Below, piece after piece: positions 11,375 through 15,297 of a DNA stretch of 32,953 nucleotides. Every line of letters starts with the position of its first letter. Within the stretch, counting starts at the first letter, position 1. This DNA comes from Methanofollis sp. (GTDB lineage Archaea > Halobacteriota > Methanomicrobia > Methanomicrobiales > Methanofollaceae). The stretch spans positions 1 to 32,953 of the forward strand of contig JASGMW010000008.1 in the NCBI GenBank assembly GCA_030156225.1, read 5' to 3'. The position numbers were made by a program, and so were the translations under genes. The notes beneath the pieces are model-generated. The model searched no databases. It saw nothing but the letters and a program-made list of their open reading frames with translations, and was not told where the DNA came from.

Positions 11375-11395
11375 ACCCAGATGTGTGCCTGATGC

Positions 11396-11407
11396 CACAA
11401 TATACTT
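11396..11407. promoter_or_regulatory. Shared bidirectional TATA region
   Basis: The sequence ACAATATACTTT is A/T rich on both strands. On plus, AATATACT (11399-11406) is about 30 nt before ATG 11436. On minus, AAAGTATATTGT is about 25 nt before GTG 11374. The divergent genes probably use overlapping TATA boxes. Confidence 0.4.
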
Positions 11408-11435
11408 TTGTACCGGGAGAGAGCACCATTTCTCG

Positions 11436-11831
11436 ATGACCGAGTACGAGCAACTTGCGGCGATCGCGGACGATCTGCTTGAGAGGGCCGATGAAGACGA
11501 GGTGCGCCTCGCCCGCCTCCTTGACGGCCTCTCCCCGGAGGTGAGAGAGGATCTCCTCAGATCGGATCTTCTCAACGCCTATCAGGCCTACTATTATTAT
11601 TTCAGGGAAAATCCAGGAGAACTTCCGACAGAACGGCTCATGCTCGCGCCTGCGTCTGAAACCCTGCGGGGTGTGCTTTTGACCGAGGTCGATCTCTTCG
11701 ACCTCGTATTCCTCTGCGGGAAGGCGGGGGCCGAGATCGCCGTCACCGACGGGGAGCAGGAGTACAGACGGTTTTCCGGGAAAAATGCCAGAAAAACGGC
11801 GGAAACCTACGTCCTCGAAGAGCTGGCATGA
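11436..11831 (+). CDS. Hypothetical methanogen protein (131 residues)
   Basis: This is a soluble acidic protein of unknown family. The N-terminal half is rich in helix-forming charged residues (EQLAAIADDLLERADEDE, then VRLARLLDGLSPEVREDLL). The middle has a tyrosine-rich stretch (YQAYYYYFRENP). The C-terminal part contains VDLFDLVFLCGKAGAEIAVT and a basic segment (RRFSGKNARK). There is no signal peptide or membrane helix. ATG 11436 is preferred because a TATA-like element lies about 30 nt upstream; an in-frame ATG at 11385 would precede that TATA. It converges on the UPF0280 gene with no gap. The coding quality looks good but the function is unknown. Confidence 0.68.
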   Translation: MTEYEQLAAIADDLLERADEDEVRLARLLDGLSPEVREDLLRSDLLNAYQAYYYYFRENPGELPTERLMLAPASETLRGVLLTEVDLFDLVFLCGKAGAEIAVTDGEQEYRRFSGKNARKTAETYVLEELA

Positions 11832-12542
11832 TCAATACCCGCCGCGCGTGATGAGGGAGGAATCGATGGTCGCCCCGGCGATCTCAGGGAGGGCGCCCCA
11901 GGTCAGGAACGTCTCGCCGATGATCGCGAGCGCCCCGAGAACGCCGGTGCCCTCGAGGGCGGCGAAAGGCTCATCGTCGCCCGGCCGGATGGTGTTGCAG
12001 AGGGAGGTCGCCCATGCGTCGGCGAGCGCGACGTTGCGGGAGCAGACGCAGACCGCGTCCGCAACCCCGAACGAGATGGAGGGGCCGACCGTCGCCGACG
12101 AGGTGCAGATGCCCAGGATCTCTTCCTGCGGCGGGACGAGAAAGGCGAGCCTGTCCGAGAACGGAGAGGCGCCGGCATGGATGCCGACCCGCACTTCCCT
12201 GTCCGAAAAAAGGGCGATGTCCCCGCCGTTATCCACGATCCCGAACGTTGCGCCGGCATCCTGCATCGCCCCGGCTCCGGCCCATGCGATGGTCCCGGCA
12301 ACGGCGGCCATCGGCCCGACTCCGGCCAGACGGGACGCTGCCCCCATCCTCCGCACCGTACGGCTCTCCGCCGGCGGGTCGCAGGGATCGAACGTGACCC
12401 CGAAGTAGGGGTCTGAGAGGAGAAAGGCTTCGAGATCCCCGCGGGCGGCGAGCATGCCCGCCTTCGCCGCCTCGATATGGGCCTGATCGTCGGCAAGGAT
12501 CGTCGTGATCGTCTGTTTGTACTCGAAGTGTTCGCGGATCAT
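11832..12542 (-). CDS. UPF0280 family protein (ApbE-like fold)
   Basis: This 236-residue protein is of the UPF0280 family (COG2122), distantly related to the FMN transferase ApbE. Recognisable family segments are MIREHFEYKQTITTILADD, the glycine/alanine-rich GVGPMAAVAGTIAWAGAGAM, VDNGGDIALFSDREVRVGIH and GICTSSATVGPSISFGVADA. Here it is the third gene after the aspartate-semialdehyde sulfurtransferase and its ferredoxin, so a role linked to homocysteine formation or sulfur delivery is a reasonable inference. The ATG itself lacks an SD but overlaps (ATGA) the stop of a 13-residue ORF that has a strong SD. Confidence 0.88.
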   Translation of the reverse strand: MIREHFEYKQTITTILADDQAHIEAAKAGMLAARGDLEAFLLSDPYFGVTFDPCDPPAESRTVRRMGAASRLAGVGPMAAVAGTIAWAGAGAMQDAGATFGIVDNGGDIALFSDREVRVGIHAGASPFSDRLAFLVPPQEEILGICTSSATVGPSISFGVADAVCVCSRNVALADAWATSLCNTIRPGDDEPFAALEGTGVLGALAIIGETFLTWGALPEIAGATIDSSLITRGGY

Positions 12543-12580
12543 AACTGAGGAATGTGTTCTGAGACGACCGTCGTCACCAT
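12539..12580 (-). CDS. 13-residue leader ORF coupled to UPF0280 start
   Basis: ATG 12580 is preceded directly by GGGGGGAGGAGGT, the strongest SD-like sequence in this operon. The 13-codon frame (MVTTVVSEHIPQL) ends in TGA that overlaps the UPF0280 ATG as ATGA. The UPF0280 start has no SD of its own, so ribosomes probably load here and re-initiate at 12542. Whether the peptide has a function is unknown. Confidence 0.4.
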   Translation of the reverse strand: MVTTVVSEHIPQL

Positions 12581-12608
12581 ACCTCCTCCCCCCGGCGAAA
12601 AGAGAGGA

Positions 12609-12995
12609 TTATTTCTGGAGGGAGAGCGCCCCGTGCGGACAGGCCTGAATGCACCTGCCGCAGAGAACGCAGCGCGGCTGATCCAGGCTGAGTTTCCAGT
12701 CGCTGTCGAACGAGAAGGCTTCCTGCGGGCAGACCGAGATGCAGGCCCCGCAGTCCACGCACTCGTCCTCGTCGCGGATGATGGCGTCCCTGAGCACGCT
12801 GACCGTCGCCCCGAGTTCCCGCATCTTCATGCAGACGGTGCGTGCGCTCTCGTCAGGGACGTCGATCAGGACGTCCCCCTCGGTCGGTTCGATCCGCGCC
12901 CGCTCGACATTGATCAGCACCCCGGTGTCCATCACCGCCCGCGCGATGATCGGTTCGCTGACTTTTTTGCGCGAGAACGAGACCATCAGTTTCAT
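12609..12995 (-). CDS. NIL-domain ferredoxin, partner of L-aspartate-semialdehyde sulfurtransferase
   Basis: This 128-residue protein combines an N-terminal NIL domain (KLMVSFSRKKVSEPIIARAV, then VLIDVPDESARTVCMKMREL) with two [4Fe-4S] clusters, C79-x2-C82-x2-C85-x3-C89 and C109-x2-C112-x2-C115-x3-C119. In methanogens the homologue (MA1822 in Methanosarcina acetivorans) works with the DUF39 protein to convert aspartate semialdehyde to homocysteine, supplying electrons or assisting sulfur transfer. The ATG overlaps the upstream DUF39 stop as ATGA and is preceded by GGAGGTGGAAGGC, a good SD, which decides the start over ATG 13004. Confidence 0.92.
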   Translation of the reverse strand: MKLMVSFSRKKVSEPIIARAVMDTGVLINVERARIEPTEGDVLIDVPDESARTVCMKMRELGATVSVLRDAIIRDEDECVDCGACISVCPQEAFSFDSDWKLSLDQPRCVLCGRCIQACPHGALSLQK

Positions 12996-14500
12996 GCCTT
13001 CCACCTCCCGCCAAGGAGTTTGCCGAGATTGAGGGCCGTGAGCATCCCGATGACGCGGTTCTGCGGGTCGACCACCGGAAGGGCGCTGATATTGTTGCGG
13101 TCCAGTTTCTGGGCGGCGATATCCACCGCCTCCTCCGGAGTCGTCCGCACGACCTTCCTGGTCATGACATCGCGCACGGCGACCCGGTCGTCAGGCCGGG
13201 CCACCGCCTTGGTGACGTCGTAGGTGGTCACGATCCCGACCAGACGGTGGTCGCCGTTGAGCACCGGCAGGTGGTTTGTCTCGCCCCTGAGCAGTTTCAG
13301 GGCCGCTTCGGTGATCGGTTCGTCCTCGGTGATGCAGACGACCTTCGTCTCCATCACCTCCCGCACCCGCGGCACGAGGTTCGTCTCGCGCATCGGGTGC
13401 GTCCGCCTGGTCCGGTCCACGCGGCGGGTCGGCAGGGCGAGATCGATCGATCCCATTTCCACCCAGTTCTTCAGGGTTTCGGCGACCTCCCGCGCCTTCC
13501 GGTAACTCGAAAGCGAAGACGTCTTCACCTCCTCGCCGTCGAGTTCGATCCTGCCGCTTTTCAGTTCGGCATAACTGATCCGGCGGAGCGTTGGGCGGTC
13601 GCGGTAGGGCACGCCGTAGTCGACGATCCCGGTCGTCAGGTCCTCGTCGCGCACCGCCGTGCTCCGCACGACCGTAAGGTCGGTCACCGGCAGCGGAACG
13701 CCGAGGCCGACATACATCGTCACGCCGTACCCCTGGAAGGTCGCGGCCCTGATATAGTCCGGGCTCATGCGCGTGAGGTCACCGGTCGTCATCAGGGTGG
13801 CGAACCCGGTGGCTGGCGACGACTGCGTCCCTTCCCCGACGATCATGCCCTGGGCCCCGCCGAGGAAGATGGGAACGCCGCTTCCTATCACGCGGTAGGT
13901 CGGGTCGTTTGCGAGCGGAGATAAGACCCCGGCGCCCGAGTACGAGACGTTCCCGCAGTTCGGGAGGAGGGTGCCCATATAGGTGTGGAGGATGCGGTCG
14001 GTGGAATTGGTCGCCGCATTGTAGCACTGGTACGCATTTCTCGGGTTCAGCATCGTGGCGTCGTTGAAGTCTTCGAGCAGCAGATTCGTGGTGACCGTCC
14101 GCCGCGGGTAGCAGTCGGTGCCCCGCGAGATCGCCCTGAGTTCGATCGATCTGCCGGATATGAGGTCTTCGATCACGTGTGCGCCGCCGTAACGGTCGCC
14201 CTGCGTCGTCGACTGCTGGGTCGCGCCGATATAGGCGTCGACCGCCGCAATGCCGCCATAGGCCTCGACGTCGTTGAGCCAGACTCGTTCCATTCGGATC
14301 GGCGGATCTGCATGGCCGAAATTAAAAAACGCGCCTGAAGAGCACATAGCGCCGAAGGTTCCGGTGGTGACGACGTCCACTTCCCTCAGCGCCGCTTCCT
14401 CGCCCAGTTCGGCGACGATGTCGGGCATCTCCTCGGCCGTGACAACGCGTGCATTGCCATCATGTATTCGCGTATTGATCTCGTCTATGGATTTCTCCAT
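12992..14500 (-). CDS. L-aspartate semialdehyde sulfurtransferase (DUF39) with two CBS domains
   Basis: This is the DUF39 enzyme that makes L-homocysteine from aspartate semialdehyde and a sulfur donor in methanogens (homologue MA1821). The DUF39 domain fills roughly residues 1-365, with conserved cysteines C53 (TFGAMCSSGAF) and C130 (SRGTDCYPRR), which appear to match the functionally important Cys of the characterised homologue. A pair of CBS domains follows (about residues 375-500: REVMETKVVCITEDEPITEA and RDVMTRKVVRTTPEEAVDIA), probably sensing adenosyl ligands such as SAM or AMP. ATG 14500 is 25 nt from the TATA box at 14521-14529, so the mRNA is probably leaderless. ATG 14521 would lie inside the TATA box. 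It leads the ferredoxin and UPF0280 genes. Confidence 0.9.
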   Translation of the reverse strand: MEKSIDEINTRIHDGNARVVTAEEMPDIVAELGEEAALREVDVVTTGTFGAMCSSGAFFNFGHADPPIRMERVWLNDVEAYGGIAAVDAYIGATQQSTTQGDRYGGAHVIEDLISGRSIELRAISRGTDCYPRRTVTTNLLLEDFNDATMLNPRNAYQCYNAATNSTDRILHTYMGTLLPNCGNVSYSGAGVLSPLANDPTYRVIGSGVPIFLGGAQGMIVGEGTQSSPATGFATLMTTGDLTRMSPDYIRAATFQGYGVTMYVGLGVPLPVTDLTVVRSTAVRDEDLTTGIVDYGVPYRDRPTLRRISYAELKSGRIELDGEEVKTSSLSSYRKAREVAETLKNWVEMGSIDLALPTRRVDRTRRTHPMRETNLVPRVREVMETKVVCITEDEPITEAALKLLRGETNHLPVLNGDHRLVGIVTTYDVTKAVARPDDRVAVRDVMTRKVVRTTPEEAVDIAAQKLDRNNISALPVVDPQNRVIGMLTALNLGKLLGGRWKA

Positions 14501-14520
14501 GGTGGAGTATTTATCCCGCA

Positions 14521-14529
14521 TATTTATAG
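14521..14529 (-). promoter_or_regulatory. TATA box of the homocysteine operon
   Basis: The minus strand reads CTATAAATA centred 25 nt before ATG 14500, with no SD between, indicating a leaderless transcript for the DUF39-ferredoxin-UPF0280 operon. Confidence 0.65.
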
Positions 14530-14589: not shown

Positions 14590-15297
14590 ATGCATATCGC
14601 AGACCTGTTGGCTCATCTCGATGGGATCGCCCCGCCGGAACTCGCGGAAGAATACGACACCGGCCGGATCGGGCTCGTCGTCGAAGGCTGCGAAGAAGTC
14701 GAGACCGTCTGTTGCGCCCTCGACGCCACACCGGCCGTTGCCGGGGCCGCCGTACGCATGGGGGCAGGAATGCTCGTCGTCCACCACACCCCGCTGTGGG
14801 AGCCGCTGACCGGCATCGCCGGTCGCGCGGCGGCGGTCCTGCGCCCGCTCATCTCGGGAGGGGTCAACCTCTATGTGATGCATACGAACTTCGACCGCGC
14901 CCCGGGCGGGGTGAACGAGACCCTCGCCGAGATCCTCGGCCTTGTCGATCCGGTGCCCATGACGATGGGCGTCGTCGGCAGGTGCACCGCCGGACTCGAC
15001 GAGATGGTCGCGCGGATCGGCGGCAACGTGCGGATCTGGGGAGAGATCAACGACCCGGGCCATCTCGCCGTCGTCGGCGGGAGCGGTTTCGACCCCGAAC
15101 TGATCGCGGAAGCAGCCCGTCTCGGTGCCGACGCCTTCCTCTCGGCAGAACTCAAGCATCATGTGGCGCGGACGTCGCCGCTTCCCTGCATCGAGTCGAC
15201 GCACTACGCCCTCGAAGCCCCTGCGATGCAGGCGCTCGCCGAACGGTCGGGATGGGAGTATATCGAAGACCTGCCGGCGGTCCGCACGATCGCATGA
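14590..15297 (+). CDS. NIF3-like dinuclear metal-centre protein
   Basis: This 235-residue protein belongs to the NIF3 / YbgI family (also labelled GTP cyclohydrolase 1 type 2 homologue). Family metal-binding motifs are present: VVHHTPLWEPLTG (paired His), MHTNFDRAPGGVNETLA (His and Asp), and IESTHYALEAPAM (His and Glu). NIF3 proteins form toroidal hexamers, each subunit with a two-metal site. Their cellular function is still unsettled, with hydrolase and regulatory roles proposed. It starts the plus-strand run, and its TGA overlaps the ATG of the next gene (ATGA at 15294), so the two are coupled. Confidence 0.9.
   Translation: MHIADLLAHLDGIAPPELAEEYDTGRIGLVVEGCEEVETVCCALDATPAVAGAAVRMGAGMLVVHHTPLWEPLTGIAGRAAAVLRPLISGGVNLYVMHTNFDRAPGGVNETLAEILGLVDPVPMTMGVVGRCTAGLDEMVARIGGNVRIWGEINDPGHLAVVGGSGFDPELIAEAARLGADAFLSAELKHHVARTSPLPCIESTHYALEAPAMQALAERSGWEYIEDLPAVRTIA

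Follow-up and report, generated by a model that had tools for sequence, protein, structure and literature searches.

What does a protein of the UPF0280 family contribute to the making of homocysteine? The question is raised by three adjacent genes in the genome of an archaeon of the genus Methanofollis. They lie on the minus strand of a stretch of 32,953 nucleotides (nt), here called the window, which is contig C62 of the genome analysed (G000; 1.79 Mb, 88% complete), and comprise HcyBio (DUF39/COG1900; 12992..14521), a ferredoxin with a putative NIL domain (NIL-ferredoxin; 12609..12995) and UPF0280 (COG2122; 11832..12542), the last gene of the unit. A sequence-only reading of the window had described these genes as consecutive on one strand, as the three open reading frames (ORFs) confirm, and had proposed that UPF0280, an ApbE-like protein "of unknown function", takes part in the same sulfur pathway, for example as a flavin or sulfur accessory factor. 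The locus is a DUF39 homocysteine operon, an ordinary and well-supported instance of a published pathway. The role of UPF0280 in that pathway has itself been published, so the epithet "unknown" still applies to its chemistry and no longer to its pathway. In anaerobes living on sulfide, the loading of sulfur for methionine is only half understood, the known half being the enzyme and not the delivery of sulfur to it; what is added here is a sharper choice between flavin and sulfur, and a single residue, Cys146, to look at.

Passages of Price et al. 2018 (PMC5764234) report that Desulfovibrio vulgaris mutants in DvMF_0044 (COG2122), DvMF_1464 (DUF39) and DvMF_0262 (NIL/ferredoxin) are rescued by methionine, and that fitness values for COG2122 and DUF39 correlate at r = 0.98 over 170 experiments, which bears out the assignment of UPF0280 to the sulfur pathway. 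The same passages name DET0921:DET0919 of Dehalococcoides as three genes for this pathway, and relate that MA1715 of Methanosarcina acetivorans matters at low sulfide, that in vivo a persulfide sits on a cysteine of DUF39, and that a part in making this persulfide has been proposed for COG2122. A passage of PMC12068725 calls MA1715 a sulfur-trafficking protein for L-aspartate semialdehyde sulfurtransferase (L-ASST).

The explanation that we favour, and hold as a whole to be moderately probable, is as follows. HcyBio and NIL-ferredoxin would together form L-ASST; sulfur carried on a cysteine of HcyBio (probably Cys60) would be added to aspartate semialdehyde, and the NIL-ferredoxin subunit would supply the electrons leading to homocysteine. 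UPF0280 would be the third component, needed for loading sulfide-derived sulfur onto the enzyme: an ApbE-fold protein that would have lost flavin transfer, with Cys146 at the old flavin pocket, where this residue would capture sulfide in persulfide form and hand it on to HcyBio. We infer the relay through Cys146, its direction, and the same role for the orthologue in the window.

Association of UPF0280 with HcyBio

Co-occurrence was counted over 246 genomes of the phylum with a completeness of at least 85, a match at E≤0.001 being taken as presence; the genomes are not independent of one another in these counts. UPF0280 was found in 190 genomes and HcyBio in 188, the latter perhaps slightly over-counted because PF01837 also matches methanogenesis marker 16 (MMP16). 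Both are present in 186 genomes and neither in 54; four have UPF0280 only (G162, G172, G196 and G204) and two have HcyBio only (G092 and G117, 89% and 85% complete, respectively), which corresponds to a phi coefficient of 0.93. By our own reading of the match rows, 19 of 30 families have both genes, ten have neither, and one (f29) has only a divergent UPF0280. Such a check of neighbourhood and co-occurrence had been suggested by the sequence-only reading, and the pattern it had named as contrary to its view, with UPF0280 mostly in genomes lacking DUF39 and unlinked to it, is contradicted within the phylum by these counts and by the linkage described below.

As a yardstick on the same 246 genomes, McrA was matched in 149 (114 over the cut-off) and gave a phi of 0.59 with UPF0280. 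Among the 97 genomes with no McrA match, 45 have both UPF0280 and HcyBio, none has UPF0280 only, one has HcyBio only and 51 have neither. The notion that the tie is a mere echo of methanogenesis was rejected on these figures, since it persists where McrA is missing. In G000 itself McrA went unmatched, a gap that is attributed to the incompleteness of this genome (88%).

Outside the phylum, fourteen named controls gave UPF0280 matches in two and PF01837 matches in three at E≤0.001; with the threshold relaxed to E≤10, UPF0280 reaches Caulobacter and Thermotoga as well, and PF01837 reaches Sulfolobus. A single-protein scan of genome contigs returned 10 loci, all in Methanomicrobiales-type or Euryarchaeota records, and all 61 relatives within the order were matched at E≤0.001, none of them over the cut-off of the model used. 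The tie between UPF0280 and HcyBio is strong in this phylum but may not be universal, given the four UPF0280-only genomes and Synechococcus elongatus, a control with a PF01837 match and no UPF0280 match.

Linkage was counted among the matches listed, which place UPF0280 in 159 genomes, HcyBio in 146 and both in 118. UPF0280 lies 811–944 nt behind the HcyBio domain on the same strand in 69 of these 118 genomes, representing 14 of 19 families; the remainder have the two genes within 5 kb (three genomes), far apart on the same contig (nine) or on different contigs (37, cases that may reflect assembly breakage). The NIL-ferredoxin gene stands between the two, on the same strand, in all 67 fetched loci holding both genes, some genomes being represented repeatedly. 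A gene order kept within 1.2 kb in 69 of 118 genomes, with NIL-ferredoxin in between in 67 of 67 loci, is not a matter of chance. Conservation extends to the partners. Cys60 and Cys137 of HcyBio are found in all 42 full-length ORFs aligned, that of the window included (about 40 distinct), and would be the counterparts of Cys54 and Cys131 of MA1821, because a passage of PMC12068725 describes those as two nearly universal cysteines. Two CxxCxxCxxxC motifs are found in 68 of 68 NIL-ferredoxin ORFs (63 distinct).

The same counts bear on a broader role. As a general sulfide-mobilising factor, UPF0280 would serve both cysteine synthesis (through SepCysS) and homocysteine synthesis (through DUF39), and its place in the operon would mark only its commonest client; we regard this as possible, if on the whole unlikely. 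Passages of PMC5764234 relate that MA1715 mutants are rescued by cysteine, by homocysteine or by more sulfide, and that a role in SepCysS persulfidation has been proposed. SepCysS, a second yardstick, co-occurs with UPF0280 at a phi of 0.83; it was counted by a threshold of its own, E below 1e-80 (189 genomes; 182 over the curated cut-off), because at E≤0.001 not one genome is without a SepCysS match. UPF0280 nevertheless tracks HcyBio better, at 0.93, and D. vulgaris, according to the same passages, needs COG2122 for methionine yet has no SepCysS. Strong SepCysS matches also occur in five genomes with neither UPF0280 nor HcyBio (G006, G173, G187, G220 and G240), and eight genomes with UPF0280 and HcyBio have weak SepCysS only, but these are drafts of 85–95% completeness.

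An invariant cysteine in an ApbE-type fold

Cys146, in the motif CTSS, is present in all 88 distinct UPF0280 proteins compared and is the sole cysteine in four of them (at loci L076, L085, L086 and L089). This set leaves aside 14 loci (the window itself, repeats of genomes already used, a same-genus sibling and cut fragments); in a recount that drops none, 114 of the 116 UPF0280-matching ORFs of all loci (108 distinct) have Cys146, and the two exceptions are fragments that stop short of this position. Cys146 likewise occurs throughout alignment A2 (43 members, the two divergent ones included) and in the bacterial protein of PDB entry 2o34. The residues invariant in the 43 aligned proteins, with that of the window among them, are P77, A82, N105, G107, D108, C146, S155, G159, D175, A178 and N183. 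Of the cysteines that the window protein contains, only Cys146 is invariant in the set compared here. A C-terminal CX2CX6DX2(H/C)X2C motif is described for the M. voltae protein in a passage of PMC9431491. No published test of the conserved UPF0280 cysteine was found in the literature searched, which comprised titles, openings of abstracts and passages.

UPF0280 has, in its predicted structure, the fold of ApbE, in agreement with the "ApbE-like" of the sequence-only reading. The AlphaFold2 model (predicted local distance difference test, pLDDT, 89.4; predicted template-modelling score, pTM, 0.88) has a mean pLDDT of 62 over residues 151–160, so the shape of this loop is uncertain. With Foldseek it retrieved 2o34 (E 1.3e-16) and then, down to E 3.9e-4, ApbE-type chains only (39), the best ApbE being at 2.5e-6. 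In the VIA comparison, Z was 25.0 for 2o34, 14.7–17.6 for ApbE-type entries (17.6 being the value for Ftp 7mgt, which holds an ADP-like inhibitor) and 7.6 for the next fold. At the sequence level, 2o34 matches the window protein at E 2e-23, and a profile comparison of UPF0280 with 13 ApbE proteins of relatives gave E 3e-6 and a probability of 88, Cys146 being aligned with the residue before the TSG of ApbE. ApbE is also the Pfam family touched by most UPF0280 members: 32 of the 43 match it at E≤1, the best of them at 5.6e-6.

All these likenesses, together with the motifs [AS]DAx[AS][TS] in 68 and NGGD in 86 of the 88 proteins, would suit a flavin protein, in which flavin adenine dinucleotide (FAD) sits in the ApbE pocket and which either flavinylates HcyBio or NIL-ferredoxin or oxidises sulfide to the persulfide level. 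The ApbE motif H-x-x-D-P-R-T-G, whose histidine is catalytic, is nevertheless missing: present in 13 of 13 true ApbE proteins of relatives (ORFs picked by position, not by motif), it occurs in none of the 88 UPF0280 proteins. In the profile alignment P-R-T-G falls in a gap, and G159–D162 is set against H-x-x-D. PDB entry 6nxj is titled as an H257G mutant. Under the Pfam ApbE model (PF02424), the window protein scores 10.1 bits against a gathering score of 25.6, and G000 has no ApbE match at E≤0.001. Overall, a flavin protein appears improbable. Because H-x-x-D-P-R-T-G is absent from all 88 proteins and Cys146 is invariant, a sulfur-relay role, by way of a persulfide, seems likelier than flavin transfer as far as the sequences indicate; of the two accessory functions offered by the sequence-only reading, the evidence leans towards that of sulfur and away from that of flavin.

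That UPF0280 is a mere passenger, co-transcribed by historical chance and unrelated to homocysteine synthesis, is very improbable: the loci where the genes lie far apart or on different contigs, and the four genomes with a UPF0280 match and no HcyBio, would fit it, but the co-occurrence persists where the genes are unlinked, and mutants sharing a phenotype, published in passages of PMC5764234, refute it for D. vulgaris.

A bolder form of the sulfur relay may also be entertained, although we think it distinctly doubtful. UPF0280 might represent a new kind of sulfur-transfer protein, its ApbE-type pocket remodelled as a sulfide-activating site in which Cys146, next to pocket residues that have been kept, would convert free sulfide to a protein persulfide for delivery to client enzymes, among them the DUF39 enzyme here and possibly another acceptor for the divergent form of family f29.

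Observations at odds with the proposed sulfur relay

Several observations weigh against the proposed relay from Cys146 to HcyBio. In distribution, UPF0280 occurs without HcyBio in four genomes, in two of them in divergent form: G162 and G172 (95% complete) keep UPF0280, although HcyBio goes unmatched in them up to E 10, and G196 and G204, of family f29, likewise lack an HcyBio match and carry a UPF0280-like protein of divergent type. Synechococcus elongatus has a PF01837 match over the cut-off and no UPF0280 match, and its HcyBio is possibly a UPF0280-independent protein. In chemistry, the UPF0280 pocket is likely still in use, because N105, D108, D175 and N183 do not vary across the 43 aligned proteins; this suggests that a cofactor is still bound, one that would be superfluous in a simple persulfide carrier. 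D162 is aspartate in 85 of 86 core proteins and aligns with the aspartate of DPRTG, so the Asp of the ApbE motif may have been retained and its His lost, part of the loop surviving. An invariant cysteine can, moreover, be structural or metal-binding. In physiology, passages of PMC5764234 relate that additional sulfide rescues MA1715 mutants and that each of the three D. vulgaris mutants is rescued in part by cysteine; UPF0280 would therefore not be strictly required for the chemistry everywhere. Finally, a passage of PMC12068725 reports that no methionine phenotype results when L-ASST itself is deleted from M. acetivorans.

The divergent protein of f29 scores 178.9 and 163.6 bits with NF003322 (cut-off 290). 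Its ORF keeps the cysteine (GICTSG) at both loci, L116:3068-8001 in G204 and L117:1394-5500 in G196, and overlaps the end of the ORF that encodes a fusion of MoaD/ThiS and 4Fe-4S domains (579 and 574 aa, respectively); the next gene at L116 encodes an aldehyde ferredoxin oxidoreductase. As for the other two UPF0280-only genomes, where only the first residues of the neighbouring ORFs were inspected by eye, the neighbour of UPF0280 resembles isocitrate dehydrogenase in G172 (L113) and an FAD-type oxidoreductase in G162 (L114).

Gene calls and surroundings of the operon

The HcyBio gene (12992..14521, minus strand) encodes 509 aa with matches to PF01837 (469.6 bits) and, over two C-terminal stretches, to the CBS domain PF00571 (89.3 bits), and its product is, by this domain content, the predicted sulfur-incorporating subunit of L-ASST. 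Its ORF begins at 14521, and the 14500 given by the sequence-only reading is a second, in-frame ATG. The NIL-ferredoxin gene (12609..12995, minus strand), with its two 4Fe-4S motifs, matches Fer4 over two stretches (57.3 bits) and NIL weakly (19.4 bits against a Pfam cut-off of 24); its probable start is ATG 12995, which overlaps the HcyBio stop as ATGA, where the ORF list has GTG 13004 instead. UPF0280 (11832..12542, minus strand; 236 aa) was recognised by the NCBIfam model NF003324 (PRK04334; 319.4 bits, cut-off 275) and has no Pfam match at E≤0.001. Its closest named relative among the matches listed is from a Methanofollis sp. metagenome-assembled genome, at 77% identity.

The unit is limited to three genes because the adjoining ORFs taken for genes sit on the plus strand, one at 11385-11831 without a Pfam or NCBIfam match and one at 14590-15297 with a family match to DUF34/NIF3. 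In the 66-nt gap between NIL-ferredoxin and UPF0280 (12543..12608, minus strand), a 13-codon ORF (ATG 12580) follows GGAGGAGGT, and its stop overlaps the UPF0280 ATG as ATGA. The region upstream of UPF0280 was compared in six genomes of the same genus: NIL-ferredoxin directly precedes UPF0280, with a different gap, at L107, L108 and L111, and the two genes are further apart at L109, L110 and L112. A 13-codon leader was dropped as peculiar to the window, the ORF being absent from the first three of these genomes.

Elsewhere in G000, the ORF at C22:35053-36222 encodes an MMP16/ComF paralogue of HcyBio (TIGR03287, 523.1 bits, cut-off 363.95); HcyBio of the window scores 157.8 bits against the same cut-off. 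An O-acetylhomoserine sulfhydrylase-type protein is encoded at C2:16591-17850 (TIGR01326, 647.4 bits, cut-off 495.1), and a second route to homocysteine is therefore possible in this genome.

Comparison with known systems

MMP16/ComF, the coenzyme M (CoM) synthase, has the HcyBio domain in common with the window protein, which adds CBS domains and a separate NIL-ferredoxin. The flavin mononucleotide (FMN) transferases ApbE and Ftp (PF02424) share the fold of UPF0280, with GGD, TS and DAxAT-type positions in alignment; UPF0280 differs from them in being without H-x-x-D-P-R-T-G and in the cysteine that precedes its TSS. DVU1097, a structural-genomics target (PDB 2o34, with the entry title "Pfam DUF375" naming no function), has the same fold and is homologous along most of its length (profile E 7.9e-45, Z 25.0; 33–35% identity) and keeps both the cysteine and NGGD, with CGSSA in place of the CTSSA of the window protein. 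Among whole systems, DvMF_1464, DvMF_0262 and DvMF_0044 of D. vulgaris Miyazaki belong to the same three families and are all methionine-rescued in passages of PMC5764234, although this is a sulfate-reducing bacterium in which, judging by locus tags, the genes are scattered. In M. acetivorans, according to the published passages, L-ASST (MA1821-MA1822) and MA1715 again represent the three families, with an HcyBio that has CBS domains and two conserved cysteines and a COG2122 protein acting in the use of sulfide; judging by gene number, MA1715 lies apart from MA1821-22, whereas in the window all three genes are contiguous.

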